Notes: generated by a model not told the origin, from the sequence alone. 64,000 nucleotides of DNA from a virus (IMGVR_UViG_3300044974_001280:166446-230445), one strand, 5' to 3'; shown: positions 7,020-57,662, counted from the first letter of the stretch. Translations and numbers: made by a program.

Positions 7020-7043
7020 AACCCAGCTTCGGCTGGGTTTTTT
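7020..7043 (+). terminator. rho-independent terminator
   Basis: ACCCAGC TTCG GCTGGGT hairpin with a stable UUCG-type tetraloop and a T run, just after the lipoprotein gene. Confidence 0.9.
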
Positions 7044-7068
7044 GTGATTAATTTACAAATTTGAACTT

Positions 7069-7701
7069 ATGCATAGATCAGAAGTGATCAATCAGATTAT
7101 CAGTACCAAAAAATTTAGCACCTACTTGGAGATAGGAGTAAGATGGCCTGAGGATTGTTACGATTTAATTCAATGCGAAGAGAAATCTGGGGTCGATCCA
7201 GGTCTAGAAAATCCTGAAAATCCGGTCAAGTATCCGTTTACCTCTGATGAATTTTTTTCCAGGCTAGAAAATAATCTGTTGGATTTACCTCCTGATTATG
7301 AGTGGGATCTTATTTTTATCGACGGATTACACCTTTCTTACCAGGTAGAAAAAGACATCTTAAATTCTTTGAATCACTTGACAGAAGAGGGAGTTATAGT
7401 TCTTCATGATTGTGATCCTTTTATGTATGAAGTAAATTACATTCGGGTCATCGAAGATTATCTTGGAGTAGCATGGAATGGAACAGTTTGGAAAACTATC
7501 TATAAGTTAAAGGCAACCAGGCCAGATCTGAATATTTGTACTGTTAATACCGACGAAGGTGTTGGACTGATCAAAAGGGAAAGCCAAGAGCTCGTTCCTT
7601 TCGATAACCCATATTTTGAGTATAAAATTTTCCAGCAAAATAGAACCAGAGATTTGAATTTAATTTCCCCTGAAAAAATATCTTCCTGGATTTTAGATTG
7701 A
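7069..7701 (+). CDS. class I SAM-dependent methyltransferase-like protein
   Basis: 210 residues. TYLEIGVR matches motif I of SAM methyltransferases (E-I-G), and WDLIFIDGLHLSYQ followed by GVIVLHDCDP matches the acidic and post-III regions of the Methyltransf_24 group. These often act on sugars or small metabolites. Its place in the glycan cluster suggests sugar O-methylation. Confidence 0.78.
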   Translation: MHRSEVINQIISTKKFSTYLEIGVRWPEDCYDLIQCEEKSGVDPGLENPENPVKYPFTSDEFFSRLENNLLDLPPDYEWDLIFIDGLHLSYQVEKDILNSLNHLTEEGVIVLHDCDPFMYEVNYIRVIEDYLGVAWNGTVWKTIYKLKATRPDLNICTVNTDEGVGLIKRESQELVPFDNPYFEYKIFQQNRTRDLNLISPEKISSWILD

Positions 7702-7761
7702 AACTTAAAATCCATCGAAAACTAATTCAGATTAGGCCGTATAATTTGAAAATTCATCCCA

Positions 7762-8538
7762 TTGAAAACATTTCAAAAGCCCTCACAAGCCATCAAGTGG
7801 GCTAAGGAAAAATTGATCGATCACGGATATGTCGTACAGACCGAGAGATGGCAGGGTATACCTTCCCCTGACGACATGTGGGAAACCTTAAATACTTCTT
7901 TCTCTATGTTTGTCCCCCACACACTCGAAGAACTACGTGATGAGGTCAGACCTAATCTTCCCTGGGCGGACGATCATTTTGAAGAAAGAATCGGGGGCCA
8001 GCCGCTGAATCCACCTCCTTCTAACGAATGGTGGCCTTTCAACCAAAAGAAGAATTCCCAATTCAAAACAGAGGAGAAATTTTCTCACACTTATCCAGAA
8101 AGACTCTGGCCTAAATTTGCATCAGAAGAACCCAATTCGACCATGTTTGGCATTAGGTACAACTACGGTGACTTTGGTGATGTGATTGATTTGTTGGCAA
8201 GAGAACCTTTCACTAGACAGGCTTTTCTGCCCCTGTGGTTCCCGGAAGACACTGGATCTGTCCACGGGGAACGAGTTCCTTGTACAATCGGCTATCATTT
8301 TATGAGAAGAGCGGATTATCTACACATCGTGTATTACATCAGGTCCTGTGACTATCTCCGCCACTTTAGAGACGATATCTATATGGCTTGTCGGAAAGTT
8401 TTTTGGGTTCTAGAAAAATTGAGGGAAAGAAATCCCGAATCCTGGGGCGAGGTTAAACCTGGATTTTTTACCATGCACATCACTTCTTTGCATTGTTTCA
8501 ATAAGGAGAAAGAAGTTCTAAGACAAAATAATAAATAA
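7762..8538 (+). CDS. divergent thymidylate synthase/pyrimidine hydroxymethylase-like protein
   Basis: 258 residues from a TTG start. The segment TRQAFLPLWFPED, then VPCTIGYHF, then YYIRSCDYLRHFRDDIYMA lines up with the thymidylate synthase core: SRR, PPCH with the catalytic cysteine, and RSxDxxLGLPFN. Cysteine is kept, but the PPCH and GLPFN strings are changed to VPCT and HFRDD. It is therefore a distant superfamily member that might methylate or hydroxymethylate a pyrimidine nucleotide. A separate, canonical but split thymidylate synthase lies at 53.6-55.8 kb. That is consistent with this one making a modified base rather than dTMP, but this is inference. Confidence 0.68.
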   Translation: MKTFQKPSQAIKWAKEKLIDHGYVVQTERWQGIPSPDDMWETLNTSFSMFVPHTLEELRDEVRPNLPWADDHFEERIGGQPLNPPPSNEWWPFNQKKNSQFKTEEKFSHTYPERLWPKFASEEPNSTMFGIRYNYGDFGDVIDLLAREPFTRQAFLPLWFPEDTGSVHGERVPCTIGYHFMRRADYLHIVYYIRSCDYLRHFRDDIYMACRKVFWVLEKLRERNPESWGEVKPGFFTMHITSLHCFNKEKEVLRQNNK

Positions 8539-8545
8539 AAAAATT

Positions 8546-9475
8546 ATGATCTCTCTAAATCACATTTTACCGGATAGAAACGGGATAGACTTTACCAGTC
8601 ATTTTGACGAGGAAAGGGAAATTGTAATTAAGTTTATAGATTCTCACACAAGATTGTGTTATTGGGGTGACATAATTAATGTTTTTCCCAAATGTTCATA
8701 CTGGGTAGCATATAGCGGTAGAATCACAAAATTTATCACTTTTGTAGTAGAGGATTTGCAAACTGGAGAAATCCTACTCGAAGTTTGTGATTACTCAGAT
8801 ACTTTTAGGCATGATATAAGAAATTTGGACCCAAAGAACAGGTTGAAAAATATAGGAAGTAATCTTTCAAAAAAAGACTTAGTAACAGGGCTTGTACTTT
8901 GGGAGATTTTTTTAAGTGGGGAATACAACCACGAACATTGTAAAGTGGAACCTGGAGATGTTGTTGTTGATATTGGGGCAAACATCGGTTTCTTTTCCTT
9001 TTTTTCGATTACAAAAGGAGCTGCACAAGTTCACTCGTTTGAACCAGACCCCAAGCTATCAAGTTTTATTCAAACAAACTTCGGTGATTTGCCAATTCAT
9101 GTCCACAATTTAGCTGTGTGGTCGGAAAAAAAGGATTTGAAACTAAATATTCATGAGTCAAGTGTTTTGAATTCAGTTTCTGTTTCGTTCGATCACACCG
9201 ATGAAAGTGTTTTTTGTCAAGGAGTTGTCCTGGAAGAATGGGCAAAAGAAAATGAGGTAAAAATAGATTTTTTAAAAATAGACTGCGAGGGAGGTGAATG
9301 GGAAATTTTTCCAAACATGAGCTCTGAATTTTTAAAGTCTATACCAAAGATAGTTTTGGAATATCATATTCATCCTCCGGATCAATTATTGCTTATCTTT
9401 TCAGAAAATGGATTTCAAACACACCACACTGGAAATATGATCTGGGCTTGGCAGAATAAAAAGATCTTGTCTTAG
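8546..9475 (+). CDS. FkbM-family methyltransferase
   Basis: 309 residues. The C-terminal half has the FkbM pattern: VVDIGANIGFFS (SAM-binding), VHSFEPDP and FLKIDCEGGEWEIF. FkbM proteins O-methylate sugars or polyketides. The N-terminal 120 residues are unassigned and may bind the substrate. It starts seven bases after the preceding gene and is followed within a base by the next one. Confidence 0.88.
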   Translation: MISLNHILPDRNGIDFTSHFDEEREIVIKFIDSHTRLCYWGDIINVFPKCSYWVAYSGRITKFITFVVEDLQTGEILLEVCDYSDTFRHDIRNLDPKNRLKNIGSNLSKKDLVTGLVLWEIFLSGEYNHEHCKVEPGDVVVDIGANIGFFSFFSITKGAAQVHSFEPDPKLSSFIQTNFGDLPIHVHNLAVWSEKKDLKLNIHESSVLNSVSVSFDHTDESVFCQGVVLEEWAKENEVKIDFLKIDCEGGEWEIFPNMSSEFLKSIPKIVLEYHIHPPDQLLLIFSENGFQTHHTGNMIWAWQNKKILS

Positions 9476-9476
9476 C

Positions 9477-10598
9477 ATGAATTCTGATAATTTAATAGGA
9501 GAAAAAATATCAGATAAAAAGTTCTGTGTCATCATAGATGCATATCCCCAAACCACGGAGGAACAAGAAATTCTTCTGGCCAATCTAAAAATTTTTCAAC
9601 AAAATGAGATAGACGTTCTTTTAACTAGCCACCATCCATGTACTCCCGAGATTATTGAAAACACTACTTATTTTATTTTTGAAAGGAAAAACAATTATCA
9701 TTTCCTTGATTCAGACATTCTAAATTACAATCTAGAGGGAATACAAAATCCAGTTTACCTGAAATACATTCAAATAGGAAATGAAATGTTTAGAGACCAT
9801 TTGGTTGTTACCGGTTGGTCGGTTTCCATTGTCTCCCAATTTGTTAATTCGATTAAATTTTTGTGGTCAAAGGGATATGAATTTGCCTTTTATTTTGTTG
9901 GAGATTTCAAATGTCCGGATAATATTCAACAAAAATTCTCTGAAATTTTTTCGAATTTAGGGGAGCACAAAAATTACTTTATAAAAAATAATCCAAATTT
10001 TAGTAGCTGGTATTGCCCACACCTTTTTGGGTTTACTTTGGACGAAAGTTTGATTCAAAAAATTCCAAATCTCGATTTTTCGGATAATTCCAATTTTCAA
10101 AAGATTTTTCCCAATTGTGGTCTTGAAGATGTGATGCTAAAACTTTTTGGCGGGGATAATAATCTAGTTGATGAACATTCCGAGATGGATAAATTTTTCG
10201 GATTCGGAAATTGGAATACAGTAAGTTCGATCATAAAACCTGGGCCAAGCGCTTTACATTTCACCACAACTTCTTCACTATTCTGGAAGGAAGATCTATC
10301 GGATTGTTATTTACTTTTAAATGTTGAACCAGGTTGCCCTTGTAATGAAGTCAGCTTCTCCATTAAGATTATTACTGAAAATTCAGAAGAAATTTTCCAT
10401 CGCGAAATAATTCTAGGAAAGGGAGGGTGGTACAAAGAAAAATTGAATGATTTGTTTGTAGATGGGGACTCTGTAGTTTTCACAAAAAAATTACATAATA
10501 TAGAAGATGAAACATGTCAATTCACAGATTCTATAAAAATTAAAAGAGAAAACTTGTCTAAATATGCTTTGGTAAAAAATTACTATAAAATCGAATGA
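9477..10598 (+). CDS. putative glycosyltransferase, family A of this cluster
   Basis: 373 residues. The N-terminus (KFCVIIDAYPQTTEEQ, then DVLLTSHHPCTPEI and YFIFERKN) shares the layout of the genes at 3414 and 13607. The C-terminal part from about residue 265 is beta-rich, as in the 3414 protein, and could be an accessory binding domain. No classical DXD is obvious. It overlaps the next GT2 start by four bases (ATGA). Confidence 0.6.
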   Translation: MNSDNLIGEKISDKKFCVIIDAYPQTTEEQEILLANLKIFQQNEIDVLLTSHHPCTPEIIENTTYFIFERKNNYHFLDSDILNYNLEGIQNPVYLKYIQIGNEMFRDHLVVTGWSVSIVSQFVNSIKFLWSKGYEFAFYFVGDFKCPDNIQQKFSEIFSNLGEHKNYFIKNNPNFSSWYCPHLFGFTLDESLIQKIPNLDFSDNSNFQKIFPNCGLEDVMLKLFGGDNNLVDEHSEMDKFFGFGNWNTVSSIIKPGPSALHFTTTSSLFWKEDLSDCYLLLNVEPGCPCNEVSFSIKIITENSEEIFHREIILGKGGWYKEKLNDLFVDGDSVVFTKKLHNIEDETCQFTDSIKIKRENLSKYALVKNYYKIE

Positions 10599-36161: not shown

Positions 36162-36166
36162 ATTAT

Positions 36167-36298
36167 AGTCAGGTGGCGGAATGGTAGAAGCAAGTAAGCT
36201 AAAGCTGTGGGGGATGTTGCAGGAGAGACTCAAGAGACCGAAAGGTGTTATTCTCAAAGGACTCAACCCACGTACAGGTTCGAATCCTGTCCTGACTA
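36167..36298 (+). tRNA. tRNA-Leu-like RNA with oversized middle region
   Basis: AGTCAGG pairs with CCTGACT. TGGCGGAATGGTAGAAGCA closely matches the D-arm of leucine tRNAs (one G-A mismatch), and ACAGG TTCGAAT CCTGT is a perfect canonical T arm. The region between D and T arms is about 87 bases, some 45 more than a normal leucine tRNA, and includes a GCAA...TTGC pairing and an ACC GAAA GGT hairpin. The anticodon cannot be assigned with confidence. It could hold an intron, an insertion or a non-tRNA function. CCA is not encoded. Confidence 0.55.
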
Positions 36299-36328
36299 CA
36301 CAAGAATGCAAAAAATAGCTCACAAAAA

Positions 36329-44643: not shown

Positions 44644-44925
44644 ATGATAAAATGGCTCTACAAACCCTCCGGTCAGTGTCCTATCCAGGCAGAGGGAGAA
44701 TTTTTAAACCACTATTTTTATTTTAGAGCAAGGTGGTCCACTGTTCTCATTGAATTTGCACCCTCTGAGAGACATTGGAATGACTCTGAAAACATCCACA
44801 CCTATTTTTTGTGGAAAACTGAATCCCCCATGGCCGGATGGGTACCCAAGTGGCAATGTTTGGTGCTTATTTACTGGGGATGTTTAAGATTTTTTTGGGA
44901 TCAAAAGATAAAACAAAATCTATGA
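44644..44925 (+). CDS. aromatic-rich small protein of unknown function
   Basis: 93 residues with many tryptophans (KWQCLVLIYWGCLRFFW near the end, possibly membrane-active). Overlaps the next ATG by four bases. Confidence 0.5.
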   Translation: MIKWLYKPSGQCPIQAEGEFLNHYFYFRARWSTVLIEFAPSERHWNDSENIHTYFLWKTESPMAGWVPKWQCLVLIYWGCLRFFWDQKIKQNL

Positions 44926-45185: not shown

Positions 45186-45421
45186 GGGTTGATTCGGAAA
45201 GTGCATTGATAAAATTCATCAATCAATTAAAGTCGGCTGGAATTGATATTCCGGAAAATTTAACATTTGAATTTGATAGCCAAGAGTTACAAATTTTTTT
45301 CAACGAATTAGCTAATCATTATTTACAACCACCATTTGACGGTGTGAATATATTTAGTCCCGATAATAACATAACGGAATTTATTTATTTCGGGCATAAA
45401 ATGAAATTAAAACAACAATGA
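45182..45421 (+). CDS. small protein of unknown function
   Basis: 79 residues, overlapping both neighbours by four bases. Acidic and aromatic, no motif. Confidence 0.55.
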   Translation: MRVDSESALIKFINQLKSAGIDIPENLTFEFDSQELQIFFNELANHYLQPPFDGVNIFSPDNNITEFIYFGHKMKLKQQ

Positions 45422-45651
45422 ACAACACCAAACAAAGTAGTATTTTATGGTTACAACAGGCATTAGAGACCATATTAACACACCAGCAAATCATGCAAAC
45501 AATTGGGATATTTGTACAGTCCCATGAGATGCACAAAGAGGAACACGCTGAAACTTGGAACAGCGCTATTGATGCAGTTCAAAAAGAAAAATGGGAATCC
45601 TACGAGCAATATTACAACGAAACTTTTAATTGTATAGCAAATGAAATTTGA
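45418..45651 (+). CDS. KQSSI-family small helical protein
   Basis: 77 residues. TKQSSILWLQQALETIL and later QSHEMHKEE match the pattern of the gene at 47198 (KQSSIEWYERQV and QAKEMHNNE), so the two are paralogues. All-helical, function unknown. Confidence 0.6.
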   Translation: MNNTKQSSILWLQQALETILTHQQIMQTIGIFVQSHEMHKEEHAETWNSAIDAVQKEKWESYEQYYNETFNCIANEI

Positions 45652-45805
45652 ATTAATGCAGTATAGATGGTATCGTAAATGGAAAGGTGGGACTTATTAT
45701 CTTATTTACAATTGGGTTACTTTACCATTTTGGTGTGATAAAATGATTACATCCTGTGGTGGAAGAGCAATTAAAATAGAAAAATTTAACACAAAATTAA
45801 TATAG
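45641..45805 (+). CDS. small basic aromatic protein
   Basis: 54 residues from an ATG overlapping the previous gene; an ATG at 45656 is an alternative. YRWYRKWKGGTYYLIYNW is unusually rich in W, Y and K. No motif. Confidence 0.45.
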   Translation: MKFELMQYRWYRKWKGGTYYLIYNWVTLPFWCDKMITSCGGRAIKIEKFNTKLI

Positions 45806-45833
45806 AAAGTTTGGGTGGAATTAAAAAATAACT

Positions 45834-45841
45834 TATCTTTA
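45834..45841 (+). promoter_or_regulatory. host-type -7 promoter box (TATCTTTA)
   Basis: A TTG at 45811-45813 stands 20 bases upstream. The next gene starts at 45857 or 45866. Confidence 0.45.
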
Positions 45842-45865
45842 CTTTGTAATTAAAAAATGAGAGTT

Positions 45866-46495
45866 ATGTATTATCAAATTAAAGAAACCCTAACTAAAGA
45901 AGAAAATTTGGAATTGTCTAAAGCTTATGAAGATAAAGCTAAGGAATATCTAAATCAATTCAACGAACTATTGAAGAACGCTAATAAAGAATTTCCGGGC
46001 CGTACCTTTGGTTTAAGTAAAGCTAAGTTGGAAAAGTTGAAAACTCCAAATGAGGTTTATGACCGTCTGCAATCAGCGGCTCGTTCCTACTACAACACCA
46101 AATCCACTTACGAAATGCGTGAGAGAATGGTGAAAGAAAAGGAAGAGAAAGAGAAACAAGCAGAGCTCCTAAAACAACGAGAAGCTGAAAAATCTAATTT
46201 GGTCAATGAAGCTATCGCCTTTTGTTTGGTCAATGGACGAACCTTTGGTGATGGTCTTTCGGTAGAAACTGCAATCTCAATCGCCAACGATATTGCATTC
46301 CAAAAAGAAGTTGAGAAACGTAAAGTTGAAATCGGCGATGGTTACATTGGCTTTTCAGGTCAGAACTGTGAAGATGAATGTGATGGTTGGAATCCACAAT
46401 ACCACCGGTGCCAATGTGGCAATCGTAGAGTAAGTTGGACTGATGGTTATTATTCAGACTTTCGAAATATGGAAATCTACGCTGAAGCTTACTAA
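45866..46495 (+). CDS. coiled-coil protein with C-terminal Cys-rich end
   Basis: 209 residues from ATG 45866, chosen because GAGTTATG matches the usual leader end here; ATG 45857 is also in frame. A long charged helix (about 75-120, ERMVKEKEEKEKQAELLKQ) is followed by NCEDECDGWNPQYHRCQCG, which may bind metal. Function unknown. Confidence 0.65.
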   Translation: MYYQIKETLTKEENLELSKAYEDKAKEYLNQFNELLKNANKEFPGRTFGLSKAKLEKLKTPNEVYDRLQSAARSYYNTKSTYEMRERMVKEKEEKEKQAELLKQREAEKSNLVNEAIAFCLVNGRTFGDGLSVETAISIANDIAFQKEVEKRKVEIGDGYIGFSGQNCEDECDGWNPQYHRCQCGNRRVSWTDGYYSDFRNMEIYAEAY

Positions 46496-46514
46496 ATTTT
46501 AACACCAAATAGAA

Positions 46515-46706
46515 ATGACACAAGAACAAAAAGAGTGGATTGATTCTGCTAACTATGAACAACTTCTTAGCACATATAGATTTGCTTCAGCTGGAGACCC
46601 TATGTTTATGGGAGAATGTGGAAAATACTATCTCGAAGTGATGCGTGAAAAGAAGCATAAACACCCCAATCCCAGCGAAGTTAGCAAACTAATAGGATGG
46701 GGATAA
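46515..46706 (+). CDS. small protein of unknown function
   Basis: 63 residues behind the TTTAACACCAAA leader. Helical, no motif. Confidence 0.55.
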   Translation: MTQEQKEWIDSANYEQLLSTYRFASAGDPMFMGECGKYYLEVMREKKHKHPNPSEVSKLIGWG

Positions 46707-46731
46707 ATCAAACCTTTAACACCAAATAAAC

Positions 46732-46962
46732 ATGAAAGAATATCTTATTACTCAAGAACAAATAGAAAAACTTGAACACTTCAAGAAAATGTTTGAATTC
46801 AATGCCCAATTAGTTCTAGACTTATGTAGTGGTGAAAGGGACGATATTGTATATGGGTTTGAACTTGGACGAATGTATTCACATCTAAGACAATGTTTTA
46901 TTGATATGATGAAACTTGAGTCTGAAATCAGAAATCAACCATTTAACACCAAAGAGAAATGA
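46732..46962 (+). CDS. small helical protein of unknown function
   Basis: 76 residues behind the TTTAACACCAAA leader. LVLDLCSGERDDIVYGFELG is the only distinctive stretch. Overlaps the next gene by four bases. Confidence 0.55.
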   Translation: MKEYLITQEQIEKLEHFKKMFEFNAQLVLDLCSGERDDIVYGFELGRMYSHLRQCFIDMMKLESEIRNQPFNTKEK

Positions 46963-47201
46963 CACCTAAAGAAAAATCAGAAGAACTTTACTACAAATAT
47001 TATCAGCTGGTCGCAGATGGACCATATCCCGAAGATAATGCTAAAAAATGTTCATTAATTGCAATTGATGAGATGATGGAGGTATATGCTTCAGCACTTC
47101 ACTCTATGGGTATTGCAAAAGATATTGCCGAATTAACACTAAGCCCATATCTTATGCAAGTAAAGCACGAAATTGAAAATCTTAAAATTGACAGTAAATG
47201 A
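46959..47201 (+). CDS. small helical protein of unknown function
   Basis: 80 residues; overlaps neighbours on both sides by four bases. Starts MTPKEKSEELYYKYYQLV, a layout frequent in small phage proteins of Bacteroidetes. Confidence 0.58.
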   Translation: MTPKEKSEELYYKYYQLVADGPYPEDNAKKCSLIAIDEMMEVYASALHSMGIAKDIAELTLSPYLMQVKHEIENLKIDSK

Positions 47202-47482
47202 AACAAAGTAGTATAGAGTGGTATGAACGCCAAGTCTGGGACCTGCTAATTCGATTTGAAAACAAGGAAATAACACTTGGCCAATATGGTGTTACCCGTG
47301 TTGACTTATTTAATCAAGCAAAAGAGATGCATAATAATGAGATGAATGTTAAAATCCAAAAAGCAATTGACAAATTTGAAGAAGCAAAAACCAATTCATC
47401 ATCTTTTAGAGACATAATCTACTTGGATGGTGTCTTAGCAGTTTTAGACACAATAAAAAACGAAACCTTTAACACCAAATAA
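47198..47482 (+). CDS. KQSSI-family small helical protein
   Basis: 94 residues, paralogue of 45418 (KQSSIEWYERQV, FNQAKEMHNNEM). Its last codons read through the repeated TTTAACACCAAA leader of the next gene. Function unknown. Confidence 0.6.
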   Translation: MKQSSIEWYERQVWDLLIRFENKEITLGQYGVTRVDLFNQAKEMHNNEMNVKIQKAIDKFEEAKTNSSSFRDIIYLDGVLAVLDTIKNETFNTK

Positions 47483-47484
47483 AA

Positions 47485-47712
47485 ATGAAAATACCAACAG
47501 CAGAAGAAACATACACTAAAGTAACAGGTTGTATTATCAATCATAAAGATGTTAAAACAGCAATGATTGAATTTGCCAAACTTCATGTTGAAGCCGCTTT
47601 AAAAGCTTCTCTTGAAAGTATACCCTGTTTAGGTTCTAGTACTGATATTGCAACTTATGATGAAGTTGAAGAGGCCGTTTTAAACGCTTATCCATTAACA
47701 AATATAAAATGA
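47485..47712 (+). CDS. small helical protein of unknown function
   Basis: 75 residues: MKIPTAEETYTKVTG and MIEFAKLHVEAALKAS give an amphipathic helical layout. Overlaps the next gene by four bases. Confidence 0.58.
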   Translation: MKIPTAEETYTKVTGCIINHKDVKTAMIEFAKLHVEAALKASLESIPCLGSSTDIATYDEVEEAVLNAYPLTNIK

Positions 47713-48074
47713 ACACGCCAGTAAGTTTTGAGATAGCAAAGTTGCTAAAAGAAAAGGGATATAAATTAGATTTTGGCGATAATCAAAAATTTTATTTCCC
47801 AGACACAAGAGAATTGACTGAAAATCATAGAGGTAATAATTATCCAGCACCAACCATTGTAGAAGTAGTGATGTGGTTGTATGAGAAGCATGGGATTTGG
47901 ATTAATGGAGGATTGTATTCACATTTAGGTAATGTTTCAAAATTTCAATTTACAATCCAAAGTCAAAAATCCAGATCAACAAATTCAATAGTACAACTCA
48001 ATATCAATCCATTTAATTCACCAGCAGAAGCATACGAAGCAGCTATTGAATACACTTTAAAAAACTTGTTATGA
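47709..48074 (+). CDS. NTPVSFEIAKLL-family protein, copy 1
   Basis: 121 residues. Opens NTPVSFEIAKLLKEKGY, contains APTIVEVVMWLYEKHGIW and ends EAYEAAIEYTLKNLL. The same frame-work is found in copies at 50443, 50826 and 51257 and, more diverged, in 48071. Its first 44 bases are identical to those of the 50443 copy. Function unknown. Confidence 0.7.
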   Translation: MNTPVSFEIAKLLKEKGYKLDFGDNQKFYFPDTRELTENHRGNNYPAPTIVEVVMWLYEKHGIWINGGLYSHLGNVSKFQFTIQSQKSRSTNSIVQLNINPFNSPAEAYEAAIEYTLKNLL

Positions 48075-48658
48075 ACACATTAAAAAAAGAATTTGTCCCC
48101 TACGAAGAAGCATTAGCACTTAAAGAACTTGGGTTTGATGAACCTTGTTTTGGTAGTTATGATATGGAAACATTAAAATTATGGATTGGGTATTTGAATG
48201 ATGGAGAACAATTCAATAGAGAATATTATTACCCCGCACCAACATTCTCACAAGCATTTAGGTGGATTAGAGAGAAGTATAAAATAAATTCTCATGTCGG
48301 ATTTAAAGATGACGAAGACAAAGAGTTTGCATTCTATTATTACCAAATAAATTGGACAAAAGGTTTTGGTTTCCAAAGTCACGAAGAAGCAGAACTTGCT
48401 TGTCTTAGGAAGTTAATTGAAATTGTAAAAGAGAAACAAATATTAACGATAGAAGTAATCATACCCTCCGAACCATTTTATCAAAAATTTGAGCATGAGT
48501 TCAAAGTACTTCCTTCAATTTCCCTTAAAGAACGTATTTTGGGTGTTTTAGAGAACCAATCTATCGAAAGGAATGAATTTGATTATAAAATAATTGAGGA
48601 AAGAGATTGGGATGGATTAACAGAAAATTTGATAAGTTGTTTCAAACAATTTGGATGA
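48071..48658 (+). CDS. diverged NTPVSFEIAKLL-family protein with C-terminal extension
   Basis: 195 residues. EALALKELGFDEPCFG, YYPAPTFSQAFRWIREKYKI and SHEEAELACLRKLIE follow the family order, with an added 70-residue helical C-terminus. Overlaps copy 1 by four bases. Confidence 0.65.
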   Translation: MNTLKKEFVPYEEALALKELGFDEPCFGSYDMETLKLWIGYLNDGEQFNREYYYPAPTFSQAFRWIREKYKINSHVGFKDDEDKEFAFYYYQINWTKGFGFQSHEEAELACLRKLIEIVKEKQILTIEVIIPSEPFYQKFEHEFKVLPSISLKERILGVLENQSIERNEFDYKIIEERDWDGLTENLISCFKQFG

Positions 48659-48673
48659 TTGAAATAATTTTCG

Positions 48674-48681
48674 TATATTTA
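48674..48681 (+). promoter_or_regulatory. host-type -7 promoter box (TATATTTA)
   Basis: TTG at 48651-48653 is 20 bases upstream; ATG 48707 follows ATAAAAGTT. Confidence 0.55.
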
Positions 48682-48706
48682 CATCATAAATAAAAAAATA
48701 AAAGTT

Positions 48707-49447
48707 ATGCCACACAACCTAATTCACACAAAAGACTACCTGTTGGTGGTTGATGATTCAGAGATTAAAGAGGGTGATTGGTGTTTTCTTGGTGAGACTT
48801 CTCTGTTTAATGCTAAAATCGGTAGAGTCAACAAAAATGTAATCTCAGATAATGGGAAAAATGGACTTAATTTCAAAAAAATCATTGCTCATCTACCACT
48901 TAATGACTTTCCAATCCTTGAAGGTGTGGATTTGCTACCACCGCTTGAAGATGAAGTTGAAGAGTTAGCGGAAAGAGAATACAGCGAGCAGAGTCAATCA
49001 TGTGATGATGATCCAAACGAATTTTTTAATTATACTGGTTACTTAAAGGCTGGCTTTATAAATGGCTACAACAAGGCCAAAGAGAAGTACAAGTACACCA
49101 ATGAGGATATGCTTACAATTAGAAACAATTTAGTTACTCTACTTCCAACAGGAGATGTTACGGCGTGGGATATGATTCAAGCTATTTCAAAATATACTAA
49201 GTGGTTTGATAATTATGTTGAATCTTTATCACAACCCGAATTACCTACTGCGTTTGAATGTGAGATACAATATTTTTATATGTCAAGTGAATATTATTAT
49301 GGCACAGAAGCCGGTTGGGTTAAGTTTGATGAGTCTCAATATGAATCTATCAGAAAAGAAATACCTACCTGTCCTTTGAAAAAAGTACATAAGGAAACAA
49401 CAACCCCCGAAGGTCATACCCAATGGGTAGGGAAATACATTTACTAA
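48707..49447 (+). CDS. protein of unknown function (HNLIHTKDYLL family)
   Basis: 246 residues. The N-terminus HNLIHTKDYLLVVDDSEIK looks like a small beta domain; the middle has FFNYTGYLKAGFINGYNKAK, a helical segment. A truncated copy of its start lies at 51526. No enzymatic motif. Confidence 0.65.
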   Translation: MPHNLIHTKDYLLVVDDSEIKEGDWCFLGETSLFNAKIGRVNKNVISDNGKNGLNFKKIIAHLPLNDFPILEGVDLLPPLEDEVEELAEREYSEQSQSCDDDPNEFFNYTGYLKAGFINGYNKAKEKYKYTNEDMLTIRNNLVTLLPTGDVTAWDMIQAISKYTKWFDNYVESLSQPELPTAFECEIQYFYMSSEYYYGTEAGWVKFDESQYESIRKEIPTCPLKKVHKETTTPEGHTQWVGKYIY

Positions 49448-49460
49448 ACCAAACTAAACC

Positions 49461-49721
49461 ATGAATCACCATCAATTAAACCACGCAAGAGAGCTTATGG
49501 ATAAGCTCAACAGGGCTGTCGCTGATTACGAATCCTTTGCTGCAGGAGTAAACCAACAATACACTACTCCTCAAATTACGCTTTATAACCATGGAACGAA
49601 AATTTATGAATTTAAAATCTCAAGAGAGCAAGCGTCTGCAATTATCGTGGATGAAAAAAACCGATTGAAAGAAAAAATGGAAAAAGCAAAAAAGGACTTT
49701 GAAGATTACATGCCAACCTAA
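49461..49721 (+). CDS. small coiled-coil protein
   Basis: 86 residues. Two helices around a short beta piece; the last is a charged coil (KNRLKEKMEKAKKDFEDY). Behind the AAACCAAAC leader. Function unknown. Confidence 0.58.
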   Translation: MNHHQLNHARELMDKLNRAVADYESFAAGVNQQYTTPQITLYNHGTKIYEFKISREQASAIIVDEKNRLKEKMEKAKKDFEDYMPT

Positions 49722-49734
49722 ACCAAACTAACCT

Positions 49735-50067
49735 ATGAAACTATACACAAAAGAATTGGATTGGGATTTTGCAATGCTCTGGGAAGCCAAAGCAAACGAA
49801 AAAAAGGAAATACACAATGAACCAAAATGGAAATGGGACTGTGGATTTAAATTGGACTTTGATGGCTCCTTGCTGTCAATTAGCAGCAGGTTTTATCCAC
49901 CACATAAAAACATTGGTAATTTTTGGGAAGGAACAGTCCAAGTGTATTTCCTTGATGATGAAATTTTGAGGAAAGAGTTTAAAACCGATACTCTTGACGA
50001 ATTAAAAGTTGAAGTCGAAAAATTTGTCAAACATTATGCAGGTGCGATTAAGGGTAGAATCGTGTAA
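49735..50067 (+). CDS. MKLYTKE-type small protein
   Basis: 110 residues beginning MKLYTKELDWDFAMLWEAKA; the rest is beta-rich with aromatic residues. Only the start is shared with 44922 and 50091. Function unknown. Confidence 0.58.
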   Translation: MKLYTKELDWDFAMLWEAKANEKKEIHNEPKWKWDCGFKLDFDGSLLSISSRFYPPHKNIGNFWEGTVQVYFLDDEILRKEFKTDTLDELKVEVEKFVKHYAGAIKGRIV

Positions 50068-50090
50068 CCCAACCTAAACCAAACCAAACT

Positions 50091-50465
50091 ATGAAACTAT
50101 ACACAAAAGAGATGTTTTTAACTGCCGCTGAAAAATGCGAGGTGTCAATGATAGACGCAAAACACATCATGCAATACATTGACGAGTATGTAACCCCTAT
50201 TGAATTGCCCACTATGAGCAATAACGAAACACACCCAGACGATTTTATTCATGGCAAATTAACCAAGCGCGAGTACTTTGCTTCTATTATGCCGGTGGAT
50301 GATTATACCTATGACACGGTTAGGCCGTTAATGGATTCAGATATTCCGCGTTCTCCTGATTTAGAAAGAATGAAATGGTGGATGCTTGTAGAGGCAAAAA
50401 TTAAAGTAATGAAAGCGGATGCACTAATTAAAGCACTAACCAATGAACACGCCAGTAAGTTTTGA
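50091..50465 (+). CDS. MKLYTKE-type small protein
   Basis: 124 residues, MKLYTKEMFLTAAEK opening, VTPIELPT as in 44922 and an acidic helical C-terminus. The last 23 bases overlap the start of family copy 2. Confidence 0.58.
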   Translation: MKLYTKEMFLTAAEKCEVSMIDAKHIMQYIDEYVTPIELPTMSNNETHPDDFIHGKLTKREYFASIMPVDDYTYDTVRPLMDSDIPRSPDLERMKWWMLVEAKIKVMKADALIKALTNEHASKF

Positions 50466-50829
50466 GATAGCAAAGTTGCTAAAAGAGAAAGGGTTTGATA
50501 TACCATGTTGGAGTTATTATTCATCTTTAAATCTTTATACTTTTGAACTTGGAGATTGGAATAATCATACTATTGGAGATACATCTATGCATAAAAGAAA
50601 TGCTGGATATTACTCAGCACCAACCATTGCAGAAGTTGTGATGTGGTTGTATGAGAAACATGGGATTTGGACTGTAGTGAATGTGAACATTATGGGGTCT
50701 TGGTATTTTGAACATTTTGATTTGAAAAAGAAAAGGAATGCTGAATTTAAACCTACAGATACACACTATAATTCACCAACAGAAGCACACGAAGCGGCTA
50801 TTGAATACACGCTAAATAATTTAATATGA
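50443..50829 (+). CDS. NTPVSFEIAKLL-family protein, copy 2
   Basis: 128 residues. The start is DNA-identical to copy 1 for over 40 bases. The C-terminal part, including ATTTGGACTGTAGTGAATG, is nearly identical to the 51257 copy for about 180 bases, so the array has been shuffled by recombination. Overlaps copy 3 by four bases. Confidence 0.72.
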   Translation: MNTPVSFEIAKLLKEKGFDIPCWSYYSSLNLYTFELGDWNNHTIGDTSMHKRNAGYYSAPTIAEVVMWLYEKHGIWTVVNVNIMGSWYFEHFDLKKKRNAEFKPTDTHYNSPTEAHEAAIEYTLNNLI

Positions 50830-51260
50830 ACACTGAAGTAAATTTTGAAATTGCAAAACTCCTAAAAGAAAAAGGATTTTCTTGGGAATGTCGTCACTTT
50901 TATCGCAAAAGTAAGTACGATAAAGAATTTTATTTAACAACAGGTACAGAATATGAATCCGATAAAGATTGTATTTGGGATTGGAACTTGAATGGTGGTA
51001 AATCAGGTATGCTTTTAAAAAAAATTCCATACCCGAATGATGATAATGCAATCTACTACTCAGCACCAACCATTGCAGAAGTTGTGATGTGGTTGTATGA
51101 GAAACATGGGATTTGGATTTATGCACATAGGATAGACCAAAAAGAATTTTATTGGTCTATTGATACTGATAAAAAAGAGTTTACATCAGGAGAAAATTTC
51201 AAAACACCAACAGAAGCATACGAAGCAGCTATTGAGTACACGCTAAATAATTTAATATGA
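50826..51260 (+). CDS. NTPVSFEIAKLL-family protein, copy 3
   Basis: 144 residues, the longest of the compact copies. It keeps APTIAEVVMWLYEKHGIW and TPTEAYEAAIEYTLNNLI, but the middle differs from copy 2, so central segments vary while both ends are conserved. Overlaps both neighbours by four bases. Confidence 0.72.
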   Translation: MNTEVNFEIAKLLKEKGFSWECRHFYRKSKYDKEFYLTTGTEYESDKDCIWDWNLNGGKSGMLLKKIPYPNDDNAIYYSAPTIAEVVMWLYEKHGIWIYAHRIDQKEFYWSIDTDKKEFTSGENFKTPTEAYEAAIEYTLNNLI

Positions 51261-51529
51261 ACACACCAGTAAAATTTGAAATTGCTGAAATTCTGTTTAA
51301 AAAACATGGAGTATTATTGTCAACTATATCAGACGTAGTAATGTGGTTGTATGAGAAGCATGGGATTTGGACTGTAGTGAATGTGAACATTATGGGGTCT
51401 TGGTATTTTGAGCATTTTAATTTGAAAGAGAAGAGGAATGCTGAATTTAAACCTACAGACACACACTATGATTCACCAACAGAAGCATATGAAGCAGCTA
51501 TTGAATATACTTTAAAAAACTTGTTATGA
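51257..51529 (+). CDS. NTPVSFEIAKLL-family protein, copy 4 (shortened)
   Basis: 90 residues. It keeps the family start (NTPVKFEIAEILFKKHG) and the end shared with copy 2, but lacks about 40 central residues. Its final codons (EYTLKNLL) match copy 1 rather than copy 2, a mosaic pattern. Confidence 0.68.
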   Translation: MNTPVKFEIAEILFKKHGVLLSTISDVVMWLYEKHGIWTVVNVNIMGSWYFEHFNLKEKRNAEFKPTDTHYDSPTEAYEAAIEYTLKNLL

Positions 51530-51567
51530 CACACAAACTAATTCACACACAAGACTACCTATTTTGA
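51526..51567 (+). pseudogene. truncated copy of the 48707 gene start
   Basis: Thirteen codons reading MTHKLIHTQDYLF then stop. This matches HNLIHTKDYLL at the start of the 48707 protein and overlaps the end of copy 4 by four bases. It shows that the array once continued, or was copied, with the same downstream neighbour. Confidence 0.6.
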
Positions 51568-51585: not shown

Positions 51586-51804
51586 ATGTTAAATTACGAA
51601 TTAGTAGAACATAGTTATAAAATTACCACCACACATGGTGGAAAATTGATAGGTTATTTTGTGCCTGATATTGATGGATTTTACTATTTTAGACCCGAAG
51701 ATGAAAAAGGGTATTGGAACGAACATGCTCTTTTAGAGTTGGGAAATAAACTCAAAGAGTTAAATCAAGATTTATACGATGAATTAAAAAAATTTGAAAA
51801 ATAA
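51586..51804 (+). CDS. small protein of unknown function
   Basis: 72 residues with a beta-rich first half and a C-terminal charged helix. Three bases separate it from the next gene. Confidence 0.58.
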   Translation: MLNYELVEHSYKITTTHGGKLIGYFVPDIDGFYYFRPEDEKGYWNEHALLELGNKLKELNQDLYDELKKFEK

Positions 51805-51807
51805 GTT

Positions 51808-52569
51808 ATGGAACAACAAAATTACACATTAGAACAGGCCGCCGAAAAATTTGGAAAACCGCATAAAATATTTGATATTCAAATAGGAGATAGACTTTAT
51901 CCAGTTTACTCAATTGATGGATATGAACACAATTTAGGTAAATGGAATGGGTGTCCTGATACATGGTGGTTAGACTACTCAGTTTATCATTCGGATAATG
52001 ATGATGAAGTACCAACCATGAGAGAGCTTATCCCATACATCGATACGGGTGTTCATAGAGTTTGCTGGGAAATAAATTATAGACAATTTAATTCAACCAA
52101 ATATAAGTGGGATGAGTGGAGCATCAGAAATGGTGGGATATGTACAATTAAAGCAAATGGTAAGGAAGTTTATAAATTTCATTGGAGAGATTTAGGAGGG
52201 GCATTGGCTGAAGCACATTCTTTGATAAGTAAAATATCAGAACATCCTTTTAATTTCATAAACCCAGAAAAAGAGATTGGAAGAAAAATATGGTATTATG
52301 GATTACCGGCCACAATCTTATTGGGATATGAACCCGGAGAAATTAGGATTAATCCCGATTTGAGTTATATGACATCGGATGAATGGTGGAATGAGTTGGA
52401 AAAAAGAAAATCAAATGTGAAACCACCAAACTCAACACAAAACGAAGATGATTTGCTGGATGCTGAACATTTTGCAGAACATAAAGATTATGGTTCGATA
52501 AATCATGGTAGTGTTTTTTATGATGGAATGATTAATTGGTTTAGACATGAAAAAAAAGATGATGAATAA
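51808..52569 (+). CDS. protein of unknown function
   Basis: 253 residues. FDIQIGDRLYPVYSIDGYE and CTIKANGKEVYKFHWRD suggest two beta domains; the C-terminus has DAEHFAEHKDYGS. No enzymatic motif. The A-rich leader ends AAGTTATGG. Confidence 0.62.
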   Translation: MEQQNYTLEQAAEKFGKPHKIFDIQIGDRLYPVYSIDGYEHNLGKWNGCPDTWWLDYSVYHSDNDDEVPTMRELIPYIDTGVHRVCWEINYRQFNSTKYKWDEWSIRNGGICTIKANGKEVYKFHWRDLGGALAEAHSLISKISEHPFNFINPEKEIGRKIWYYGLPATILLGYEPGEIRINPDLSYMTSDEWWNELEKRKSNVKPPNSTQNEDDLLDAEHFAEHKDYGSINHGSVFYDGMINWFRHEKKDDE

Positions 52570-53453: not shown

Positions 53454-53642
53454 ATGAATAACACAAAATTTAAAGTAGGAGATAAAGCGTGGAAACCGAA
53501 AGGATATAAATTTCCTTGCACAATTGTATCCGTATTCACAACAATAAAAGGTGAAATTAGATTAGTAGCCGAAATGGATGAATATGGATTATTACACATT
53601 TTTAACGAACAACAATTAGAACATTATGAACAACCTCGATAA
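53454..53642 (+). CDS. small SH3-like protein of unknown function
   Basis: 62 residues. [20 protein letters not shown] then a valine-rich strand suggests a small SH3-like barrel similar in style to 29090. It overlaps the start of the thymidylate synthase N-part by 17 bases. Confidence 0.6.
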
Positions 53643-53943
53643 ACAGTATCAATCACTACTCCAAGATATATTAGATAATGGAGTGGAAAAGAAAGATAGA
53701 ACAGGTACTGGTACTATTTCAGTATTTGGTAGACAAATCCGTCATAAAATGAGTGAAGGGTTTTCACTTCTTACAACCAAGAAAATGGCGTGGAAGTCAA
53801 TATGTACAGAATTACTTTGGTTTTTAAGAGGCGATACATCAATAGAGTATCTTCTTAAAAATGACTGTAACATTTGGACGGGGGATGCTTATCAAGCATA
53901 CCTAAAAGAATGTGAGAAGTTAAAGAAAGATGAGGAAAAATAA
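53626..53943 (+). CDS. thyA: thymidylate synthase, N-terminal part (split gene)
   Basis: 105 residues holding RTGTGT with the dUMP-phosphate arginine (R25), [31 protein letters not shown] and NIWTGDAY, the first third of a normal thymidylate synthase. It then stops after DEEK. The catalytic cysteine is missing here and is found in the second part at 54952. The two polypeptides would have to associate to work. Confidence 0.92.
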
Positions 53944-54954
53944 TGACTTTTGTTGGTTTTTAGATATTTATTATAAAAGAAACCAAAATGTGTCTAAAAA
54001 CTAAAATTGAAACAACCTTGTGTGTTATAAAAAATAATGAGTATAAAATATTGTCTCAAAAATTAAGAGTAATTGAATCATCACTTAAACAGGATATTAT
54101 TGATAGTACTCAATATCTAACTATTTACAATCCTAAATTGGTTGATAGGATAAGGTATATCTTGAAAGATAGAAACTCCGTTAATACTTGCTTCCATTGT
54201 GGTAACCCAATTATTGATTTGAATAGAAAATTTTGTTCTGCAAAGTGTAATAACAATTCGGAACTAACTAAAAATAAATTTAGAGAAAGATATAATAGTT
54301 TATCGGAAACAGATAAAATCATAAGAAATAATAAAAGACGTAAAACTGTTAATGAAAAATACGGTGGTTATACTTTACAAAGTCCTGAACTAAAAAAGAA
54401 AATTAAATCAACTATGATTAAAAAATATGGTGTTGAACATTCTTTTCATAGTGATGCAATAAAACAAAAAGCGTTAAATACTTGGATTAAAAAGTATGGT
54501 GTTGACAACCCGTTTAAATCTCACAGTATAAAAGAGAAAATAAAGCAAGTATTAAAAGATAAATACGGGGTTAATAATTCCGCTAATATTAACTCGGAAA
54601 ATAGAATTGGTAATGGTATTAAAACAAAAATCGAAAGAGGATGGATAATACCTGATGAGTTTTTGTCGGATTACCAAATTTATAGAAAAAAAGTTAAACG
54701 ATTAACTGAAACAACATATAAAATGTATAAAAACATTATAAACCCAAATAATTTAGAAAGAGTAACAAATGGAAAAATTGGGTTCCAATTAGACCACAAA
54801 TACTCAATAATTGAAGGATTTTTGAATAATGTAGAACCTGAAATTATTAGTCATCACTGTAATCTACAAATGATAGAATGGAGTAGTAATAGAACTAAAA
54901 GTAAAAGATGTGATATTGATTTAGAACAATTAAAAAATGAAATAAAAAGTTATG
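53941..54954 (+). mobile_element. homing-endonuclease insertion within thymidylate synthase
   Basis: From the stop codon of the N-part to the ATG of the C-part. Removing it joins DEEK to NKEHLHPDGRPYT in frame, giving a continuous enzyme. The insert carries its own weak promoter-like stretch (GATATTTATTATAA) and one endonuclease gene, with only 44 and minus 8 bases of non-coding flank, too little for a self-splicing intron. Confidence 0.75.
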
Positions 54955-54959
54955 AATAA
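53988..54959 (+). CDS. HNH-type homing endonuclease
   Basis: 323 residues. A zinc-finger-like CFHCGNPIIDLNRKFCSAKC (C68, C71, C83, C87) is followed by repeated YGVxNxF/S units (KKYGVEHSFHSDAIKQ and KKYGVDNPFKSHSIKE), DNA-binding repeats known from phage endonucleases. The C-terminal FQLDHKYSIIEGF, HHCNLQMI and SSNRTKSK resemble an HNH site. It overlaps the thymidylate synthase C-part start by eight bases. Confidence 0.82.
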   Translation: MCLKTKIETTLCVIKNNEYKILSQKLRVIESSLKQDIIDSTQYLTIYNPKLVDRIRYILKDRNSVNTCFHCGNPIIDLNRKFCSAKCNNNSELTKNKFRERYNSLSETDKIIRNNKRRKTVNEKYGGYTLQSPELKKKIKSTMIKKYGVEHSFHSDAIKQKALNTWIKKYGVDNPFKSHSIKEKIKQVLKDKYGVNNSANINSENRIGNGIKTKIERGWIIPDEFLSDYQIYRKKVKRLTETTYKMYKNIINPNNLERVTNGKIGFQLDHKYSIIEGFLNNVEPEIISHHCNLQMIEWSSNRTKSKRCDIDLEQLKNEIKSYE

Positions 54960-55752
54960 AGAACACTTACACCCAGATGGAAGACCATACACCCAAGAAG
55001 AATTCATCAACAAAATCAAAACAGATGATGAGTTTGCTAAGAAGTGGGGTGATTTGGGACCAATTTATGGTAAACAGTGGAGAAAATGGAAAACCGAAGT
55101 TGCTATTCCAACAACATTAAAAATTGATGATGGTGATGATATTGAACCCTTATATGTAAAAGGAACACAGTATATTGACCAAATCCAAAACCTAATCAAC
55201 GACCTTAAAACAAATCCTGATAGTAGGAGATTAATGGTTTCGGCTTGGAATGTAGGTGAATTAGACCAAATGGTTCTCCCACCTTGTCATTATGGATTTC
55301 AAGTTTATACAAGAGAGTTAAGTTATGAAGAACGGTGTAATATATTTCAATCAACAGAAAGATTTAAAATGGAAACCCGAGAACATATTAAAGAGTTAAA
55401 TATTAAAATAATGAATGAAGCCGAAGTTCCAACCAGAGCAATCTCTCTAATGTGGAATCAACGCTCAGTAGATACATTCTTGGGTTTACCATTCAACATT
55501 GCTTCTTATGGATTATTATTGGAAATGATTGCAGATGAAGTACAAATGATACCTGATGAATTGATTGGTAATTTAGGAGATACACATTTGTATTTAAATC
55601 ATATTGAACAAGCAAAAGAGCAAATAAAAAGAGAACCATTTAGACTACCAAATGTTCACGTTAGAGATGGTATCGAATCATTTATGCCAGGAGATATTAT
55701 TTTAGAAAATTATGTATCACATCCAACAATTAAAGCGCCCCTGTCCAATTGA
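54952..55752 (+). CDS. thyA: thymidylate synthase, C-terminal part (split gene)
   Basis: 266 residues. WGDLGPIYGKQWR, DSRRLMVSAWN, LPPCHYGFQ with catalytic C112, QRSVDTFLGLPFNIASY and GDTHLYLNH are all intact, ending in HPTIKAPLSN. The order and residues are those of a complete enzyme from about its second third. Together with the N-part it would convert dUMP to dTMP with methylene-tetrahydrofolate. Confidence 0.94.
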   Translation: MNKEHLHPDGRPYTQEEFINKIKTDDEFAKKWGDLGPIYGKQWRKWKTEVAIPTTLKIDDGDDIEPLYVKGTQYIDQIQNLINDLKTNPDSRRLMVSAWNVGELDQMVLPPCHYGFQVYTRELSYEERCNIFQSTERFKMETREHIKELNIKIMNEAEVPTRAISLMWNQRSVDTFLGLPFNIASYGLLLEMIADEVQMIPDELIGNLGDTHLYLNHIEQAKEQIKREPFRLPNVHVRDGIESFMPGDIILENYVSHPTIKAPLSN

Positions 55753-55823: not shown

Positions 55824-56481
55824 ATGGCAGTTGTTTATTTACACAAAAAGAAAAATACTAATGAAGTTTTTTATGTTGGGATTGGCCTTTATGAAGAAAG
55901 AGCTTATTCTTATAGAAATAGAAACATACATTGGAAAAACGTTGTTGCTAAATATGGATATGATGTTGAAATTATTGAATCGGATATTGAATGGGAAGGT
56001 GCATGTGACACTGAAAAATATTTAATTCAAAAATATGGTAGAGATATGTTGACAAATATGACAGATGGGGGTGAGGGGTTATTCAATCCATCAGATGAAG
56101 TTAGAGAAAAGTTAAGATACGCAAGAACAGAAGAGCAAAAACAAAAATTAAGAGAATATCAAATTGGGGTAACGCAATCCGAAGAAACAATACAAAAAAG
56201 AATATCACATGGATTTCATAAATCTGATGAGTATAGATATAAAATGAGCATTGCATTATCAGGTGATAATAATCCAATGAAAAAAGGAGAGAATAGAGAA
56301 AAATTAAGGAAACCAAAACCACCAAGAACAAAAGAACATAGTAACAAAATAAGTGAAACCAAAAAAGGGAAAACCTACATGGAACAAAGGTAAAACTTTA
56401 GAAAAATTTGTTTGTGATATTTGTAGCAAACAAATTGGTGGGTATGGTAATCTAGTACAACACAAAAAGAAACATTTATGA
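55824..56481 (+). pseudogene. GIY-YIG homing endonuclease with frameshift
   Basis: The first 189 residues have VVYLHKKKNTNEVFYVGIG (GIY-YIG core), ACDTEKYLI and NMTDGGEGL, then repeated basic NUMOD3-like segments. The frame stops at 56393. One A too many at 56370-56373 would explain this: deleting it continues as KKGKPTWNKGKTLEKFVCDIC and ends HKKKHL at 56481, adding a zinc-finger-like end. This may be an assembly error, slippage or inactivation. Confidence 0.8.
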
Positions 56482-57092: not shown

Positions 57093-57662
57093 ATGAGCAC
57101 AACATCACACGCAAAATTTGAATTAGAATTAGCAGGCTTCTTTGGAGAAGATTCTGACTATGGAGGAGCCATCGGAGAGGCAGTTATGGAACTAATGGAG
57201 GTATTTGAAAAACAAGGACACTCAGGTGGTTCAGCACCGATTGTAGCCTCTTTATTTCACAAATTAGCTAACTACAAACCACTGGGGCCTATTACAGGTA
57301 AAGATGAAGAGTGGGGAAATGTTAGTGATTTAGCAGGTAAACCTTGGTATCAAAACAAAAGAGAGGGTGGATTGTTTAAGGATAAGGATGGTAGGGTTAC
57401 ATATAATGACGCTATTATCAAAAGATGTCCTAATGGAACAACTTGGTCAGGACCTATTTACATGACTCGAGAGGATGCTATCAACAATACAAACCGATTT
57501 CATAGTTCTTTGGAAATTAAAGGATTTCCATTTACACCAAAAACATTTTACATTGATGTGTTGGAGGAAGAAATTAAAAAAGATGATTGGATTATGTGGG
57601 TAAAAGACCCAAAACAATTGGATGAAGTATGGGAGTATTACAAAAAACCTGATTTTTTATGA
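57093..57662 (+). CDS. protein of unknown function
   Basis: 189 residues: a helical N-terminus ending KQGHSGGSAPIVASLF, then an aromatic, beta-rich part (NGTTWSGPIYM). It looks like a conserved accessory phage protein, but no function is known to me. Overlaps the next gene by four bases. Confidence 0.65.
   Translation: MSTTSHAKFELELAGFFGEDSDYGGAIGEAVMELMEVFEKQGHSGGSAPIVASLFHKLANYKPLGPITGKDEEWGNVSDLAGKPWYQNKREGGLFKDKDGRVTYNDAIIKRCPNGTTWSGPIYMTREDAINNTNRFHSSLEIKGFPFTPKTFYIDVLEEEIKKDDWIMWVKDPKQLDEVWEYYKKPDFL

Follow-up and report, generated by a model that had tools for sequence, protein, structure and literature searches.

Comparative evidence for two-module exchange at conserved blocks in a tandem family of small phage proteins

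The genes of large phages are mostly small and unexplained. Here we describe a tandem array of such genes, whose family turns up in many phages that are otherwise unlike one another and which is the sole site of block replacement between two virtually identical phages. Comparison of aligned family members and contigs shows a modular architecture, exchange of single modules with edges in a central hinge, and the swap of a whole block of the array. Homologous recombination at the conserved blocks is well supported as the source of diversification. In the fuller reading, to which we give about an even chance, the array encodes small binding proteins that carry two modules on a common scaffold, re-assorted at the conserved blocks and selected for binding host factors. 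The general process is already known; what appears to be new, against the limited literature searched, is two-module, cross-phage exchange in a widespread, uncharacterised phage family, phrog_12005.

The window, the whole stretch of 64,000 nucleotides that was analysed, corresponds to bases 166446-230445 of a phage record of 230,445 bp in total. The window has a run of small genes at 45.4-51.6 kb, all on the + strand. The original prediction, made from the sequence alone, took 45418-51567 as a single feature; small genes do lie there, but they are not one unit, as the core of a five-member family spans about 47.7-51.56 kb (members within 47709-51529) and the tract swapped between phages only 48024-49075. 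The predicted gene content was recovered: four compact NTPV-type genes (47709, 50443, 50826 and 51257), one diverged member (48071), a KQSSI pair and MKLYT-type genes. The four-base overlaps said to join nearly all of these genes occur at just 7 of 17 junctions. Interspersed among the family members are the two KQSSI genes (45418..45651 and 47198..47482, + strand), which also have NETFN at the C-terminus in common, the MKLYT genes and one HKLIHT-type gene (48707..49447, + strand, 246 aa). Two MKLYT-type genes (49735..50067 and 50091..50465, + strand) begin with a 42-nt start block that is 95% identical between them and have dissimilar bodies; the 3′ end of the second runs 23 nt into the start of 50443, and an additional MKLYT-type gene sits in an ORF at 44838, also on the + strand. 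A remnant of an HKLIHT-type gene start (51526..51567, + strand) reads 13 codons and then a stop (MTHKLIHTQDYLF). The thymidylate synthase gene of the window resembles a Flavobacterium phage counterpart, and Rfam gave no support for a group I intron around thyA. A homing-endonuclease-like NUMOD3 protein lies near the array, at 55824.

The genes 47709, 48071, 50443, 50826 and 51257 form one family, all five being recovered by a family-derived profile, and all except the truncated 51257 match phrog_12005, for which no function is recorded. Among the family members tested, 42 of 49 match this entry at E<=1e-3 (best 2.1e-27); 50443 matches it with E=5.7e-10 over profile positions 5-123 of 137 and belongs to it on that basis. 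The NTPV-type genes, subfamily A, lie on the + strand at 47709..48074 (121 aa; phrog_12005 E=8e-5), 50443..50829 (128 aa), 50826..51260 (144 aa) and 51257..51529 (90 aa). The diverged member, of subfamily B (48071..48658, + strand, 195 aa, beginning MNTL-KEFVPYEEALALKELGFDEPCF), has a C-terminal extension past the usual family end. In all members the parts follow one order: a start block, a variable module V1, the hinge, a second variable module V2 and an end block, with modules of about 20-80 aa. The subfamily A signature is MNTPVSFEIAKLLKEKGF ... APTIAEVVMWLYEKHGIW (the hinge) ... SPTEAYEAAIEYTLNNLI and that of subfamily B is KEFVPYEEALALKELGFDEPCF ... APTFSQAFRWFREK ... YEEAELACLxKLIEIVK, the order of parts being identical in the two. 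An A gene followed directly by a B gene, whose start overlaps or abuts the preceding stop, was also found at other loci (L013, L018, L021, L022 and L031). AlphaFold2 models of A and B agree in the order of secondary-structure elements (mean pLDDT 84.6 for 50443), confidence being highest for the conserved blocks and falling to its lowest in the two variable modules. Almost every member is an intact open frame, and scaffold residues stay conserved even between very diverged phages. Truncated or remnant copies also exist, namely 51257, the remnant at 51526 and a locus (L037) that yields two fragments. As predicted, one copy is a mosaic: 51257 has its own short N-terminus and almost no V1, and continues into a hinge, V2 and end that match those of 50443 at 90% DNA identity over 202 nt.

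DNA repeats within the array are far above chance. The longest described here is a 209-nt block with 89% identity between 50621 and 51321; hinge blocks of 73 nt occur in four copies (66-93%), and there are further repeats in 65-nt start blocks and 90-nt end or junction blocks. That copies are almost identical at the DNA level, as originally proposed, holds where the closest copies are compared in their short hinge and start blocks (92-98% identity) and not for the long block at 89%. The hinge block of 50443 (APTIAEVVMWLYEKHGIW, 50606..50679, + strand) is homologous at the DNA level to as many as 37 phage loci and is the usual crossover zone. Its equivalents lie at 47837-47904, about 51053-51119 and 51314-51379, and at 48234-48288 in subfamily B. 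The A-to-B junction block (48006..48165, + strand), which takes in the end of 47709, the ATGA overlap and the start of 48071, is likewise homologous to as many as 32 phage loci. About 40 other loci show DNA homology to the array, and this falls only within the family's start, hinge and end blocks; other stretches of the window that are common to relatives, such as thyA, recur at no more than 6 loci. In the hinge, the rare synonymous codons ACC, TTG, GAG and GGG are conserved in many phages. However, codon identity at identical residues was 0.74 in hinge windows versus 0.68 in conserved windows of other proteins at the same loci, and the pair means were 0.71 for the hinge versus 0.71 for the control proteins. 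Since the control proteins were about equal, we dropped the hinge as a DNA-level signal (a recombination site) and see nothing that marks a dedicated recombination signal. The conserved blocks need be nothing beyond homologous sequence.

A replacement between two nearly identical phage contigs gives a direct view of exchange. One contig (G002, 150,077 bp) aligns to the record across 149.5 kb, and outside the array the two differ by just 10 events in about 148 kb: six SNPs lying 51 bases or less from the aligned contig end, one change in tandem-repeat length, two further SNPs and one 1-base indel. The comparison also showed a 15-base deletion near the array, at 51802. Within the array, a tract of about 1.05 kb (48024..49075, + strand) is replaced, comprising a non-homologous core (48159-48860) and SNP-dense flanks with 21 SNP positions. 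In the replaced locus (L008), the B gene corresponding to 48071 retains its start, hinge and end and has a new V1 and V2, giving an allele of 143 aa versus 195 (AlphaFold2 mean pLDDT 74.8). The HKLIHT-type gene retains its leader and, nearly identical, its body from about residue 58, and the segment between them is new. The tract has diverged SNPs of its own on its flanks, and it is not a copy of the phage's own paralogues. A search among relatives found no donor; the nearest relative of the new B allele (L108) shares its V1 (71%) and not its V2 (26%). Another contig (G001) matches the window throughout the array, and for 12.4 kb a second contig keeps the window's arrangement without change. 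Upstream of 48707, the replaced tract contains a promoter-like element, TTTCGTATATTTACA (48669..48683, + strand), one of 3 such sites in the window versus 0.34 expected, which may act as a promoter. In L008, the HKLIHT-type gene overlaps its predecessor by ATGA instead of having TTTCGTATATTTACA upstream, so the swap may also change expression.

Across phages, we collected 86 distinct family members from phage loci, 74 of them with measurable modules; most of the loci compared are metagenome contigs. At 70% identity or above, V1 was shared in 6 pairs and V2 in 10: V1 alone in 4, V2 alone in 8 and both in 2. The two pairs with both modules come from the same phage or near-identical contigs, and every pair from different phages that shared one module at this level lacked the other. 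A shared module was nearly always shared in both its halves, which indicates that the module is the unit of exchange. The correlation between V1 and V2 identity was near zero (r=0.086), but halves within a module also gave about zero, at background identity, so this value is not evidence by itself and only the tail of shared modules counts. Of 13 mosaic pairs aligned at the DNA level, 11 have a homology boundary within the hinge, between 11 codons before and 3 codons after the hinge tryptophan; homology began 3 to 11 codons before this residue in pairs sharing V2 and ended 3 codons past it in pairs sharing V1. The remaining 2 pairs align throughout with gaps. One mosaic pair includes an isolate, Leptolyngbya phage Lbo-JY46, with V2 at 96% amino acid identity (88% DNA over 250 nt) and V1 at 21%. 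At one locus (L118), an MKLYT leader is fused to the hinge, V2 and end of subfamily B, so exchange crosses families. The family has 5 copies in the window's phage, 7 in another (G003, in two arrays) and 1-3 elsewhere. The view of a tandem, recombining and diversifying family with which the analysis began is thus borne out by a copy number of 1 to 7, by the allele swap between near-identical phages and by hinge-edged module exchange; the constant copy number and lack of variation in relatives that were named as grounds against it were not seen.

What the proteins do was approached through searches of several kinds. No member matched PADLOC, Pfam or NCBIfam at a meaningful score, and the family is therefore not filed as anti-defence. 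Among solved structures, the 50443 model had no fold match and the subfamily B model fared no better; PDB matches to dsRNA-binding domains and to UPF0339/DUF1508-like proteins, at E about 0.7 or worse, were discarded. Structure comparison against a viral library matched three uncharacterised phage proteins. Cellular occurrence was limited to 2 of 396 genomes in the phylum of a Bacteroidales genome. The subfamily A scan matched two metagenome-assembled genomes, the subfamily B scan had no confirmed cellular relative, and plasmids gave no family match. A protein of the Tad3 family of Type I Thoeris inhibitors is encoded 5.5 kb downstream of the array in the window's phage (57093..57662, + strand; Pfam PF25185, E=2.1e-35). 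Of 25 relatives' records, 3 have Tad3; two of these belong to the window's phage itself and the other is G003, where Tad3 lies 48 kb from the nearest array, and its link to the array is weak. Genes for RNA ligase and for polynucleotide kinase are also present in the window; their counterparts in other phages mend tRNAs that host defences have cleaved. With Tad3 nearby and these repair genes in the same window, our leading guess is that the targets, most probably, would be components of host immunity. The anti-host or anti-defence role first proposed is no more than plausible: the nearby Tad3-family gene speaks for it, and the absence of Tad3 from most relatives and of any PADLOC, Pfam, NCBIfam or fold match for the array proteins speaks against it.

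A mechanism consistent with these data would have recombination running at three conserved DNA blocks, namely the gene start, the central hinge, and the gene end with its junction. The donors would be co-infecting phages and paralogues, within and between phages, and host or phage machinery would perform homologous recombination through the blocks. We found no RecA-family recombinase in the 230-kb record (G000), so either the host's recombination or a phage recombinase that escaped recognition would be needed. V1 and V2 would then be binding surfaces, their diversity maintained by selection for shifting specificity against polymorphic host factors. A stronger version, in which the array is a dedicated combinatorial system, with two independently exchangeable specificity modules around a fixed hinge and tandem repertoires that co-infecting phages re-assort to yield new inhibitor specificities against polymorphic host immunity without point mutation, seems to us improbable.

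Relaxed constraint together with phage mosaicism could yield much of the pattern. Under neutral or weakly selected accessory mosaicism, small dispensable early genes would recombine by scaffold homology because phages often co-infect, and they would serve no particular anti-host role; the truncated and remnant copies, the ordinary conservation of hinge codons and the lack of any functional match all fit. Replacement is, however, concentrated at one place in about 150 kb, the family is kept in many different phages, and intact frames with scaffold residues maintained across very diverged phages would be unexpected of dispensable genes, so that this account is possible but on balance doubtful. 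We regard as distinctly unlikely that the modules recognise other phages or satellites, serving superinfection exclusion or immunity like esaG/tsaI arrays. Several non-identical copies would suit a specificity repertoire, and the block-mediated architecture is the same as that of tandem immunity genes (PMC9484751), but no cognate toxin or polymorphic partner was recognised near the array, and bacterial genomes and their prophages essentially lack the family.

Two further accounts would place the variation elsewhere than in ordinary recombination. Short-read assemblers can switch precisely at repeats such as these blocks, and chimeric joining of strains in metagenomes could in principle have produced the L008 swap. 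Against this, the tract has its own diverged SNPs on either side and does not copy the phage's paralogues, the window's arrangement recurs unchanged in a second contig, the same edges appear in many independent contigs, and the isolate Lbo-JY46 takes part in module exchange. An isolate among so many independent mosaics makes assembly error unlikely as a general explanation, and we hold the chance of such an artefact to be very small. A conserved framework carrying hypervariable segments also recalls diversity-generating retroelements or other programmed hypermutation, an origin that we consider virtually out of the question. No reverse transcriptase (PF00078) was found in the 230-kb record, which may be incomplete, with positive controls, and on this ground the array is not such an element. 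Its variable segments lack homology between alleles and vary in length; they do not show the adenine-specific changes of a template and variable repeat.

Recombination through the blocks, with selection for host-factor binding, is thus the reading we carry forward, and swapping halves looks like a means of varying what the proteins bind in the host. The array pattern points strongly, and at little cost, to genes that change under pressure from the host, and the boundaries of the modules mark the exact pieces worth testing. If the modules do bind host defence proteins, the family would be a large, ready-made catalogue of inhibitors.

Members match phrog_12005 by sequence, and that entry does not describe the two-module architecture, the A/B tandem pairing or module exchange. 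We found no literature on phrog_12005, and two-module cross-phage exchange in this family did not appear in the limited set of literature searched. Among better characterised systems, SegB drives amplification of anti-defence loci (PMC13096335). The phage array resembles these in its copy-number plasticity and in having the NUMOD3 protein nearby; however, module exchange and not amplification is its main signal. Segmentally variable genes alternate conserved and highly variable segments, for which binding functions have been proposed (PMC387263), but their variable segments are at least 70 aa long and come from microbial genomes. In HsdS, two variable modules, TRD1 and TRD2, are separated by conserved repeats and are exchanged there (PMC3077401), and here too each of two variable modules is replaceable by recombination at conserved parts. 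Unlike the phage family, HsdS binds DNA within a restriction enzyme; the two have no sequence relation, and no module of the phage proteins was seen to move from one variable position to the other. The tandem immunity genes esaG of Staphylococcus and tipC of Streptococcus recombine via two or three conserved blocks per gene, altering copy number and making mosaics (PMC9484751). The phage array likewise has tandem, non-identical paralogues with shared blocks, and its family shows both mosaics with breakpoints in the blocks and copy-number change. While esaG and tipC are bacterial immunity genes of the T7SS, the phage genes have no identified toxin partner and are exchanged between different phages. 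In behaviour, esaG/tipC and HsdS are the closest cases to the family described here.

A DNA sequence resembling TTTAACACCAAA...AAATGA recurs at four junctions (46498-46532, 46715-46749, 46942-46976 and 47468-47502), each copy preceding a gene start; two of the four are coding and the other two non-coding. The phage also bears a tmRNA at 2452-2891 (Rfam RF00023, E=4.3e-26), which ARAGORN did not report, and a tRNA-like match with a long insertion inside it at 36167-36298, which the same program missed. Five other phage loci resemble, at the DNA level, the stretch overlapping the latter (36165-36318).

Comparison of the full 230-kb record (G000) with G002, a 150-kb contig of virtually the same phage, revealed that the array locus of G002 (L008) lacks 15 bases, at window positions 51802-51816, a deletion that fuses the ORFs at 51586-51804 and 51808-52569 in-frame into a single long protein. 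Two internally repetitive stretches of G000 were found, around base 1116 of locus L067 (G000:101116) and at 7032-9949 of locus L069 (G000:147032-149949), and the former is of variable length, G000 and G002 differing there by about 72 bases.

Roughly 4 kb from the array of small phrog_12005-type genes, the ORF at 55824-56393 has a NUMOD3 motif (E=2.4e-6) and an N-terminus that by eye appears GIY-YIG-like; the product is probably a homing endonuclease. The window at 57093-57662 encodes a homologue of Tad3-family Thoeris inhibitors, in a large phage, and the thymidylate synthase DNA of a Flavobacterium phage is similar to that of this Tad3-carrying phage.

The thymidylate synthase gene is split over a region comprising 53626-53943, 53988-54959 and 54952-55752, in which two thymidylate synthase pieces, covering profile positions 1-90 and 76-265, flank a DUF7487 protein. 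An Rfam search at the split gene gave no intron match. Relatives L032 and L079 have the gene unbroken, and that of L026 carries another long insertion, in-frame and unlike the one in the window. The split arrangement in the window has the look of an intron or homing-endonuclease insertion.
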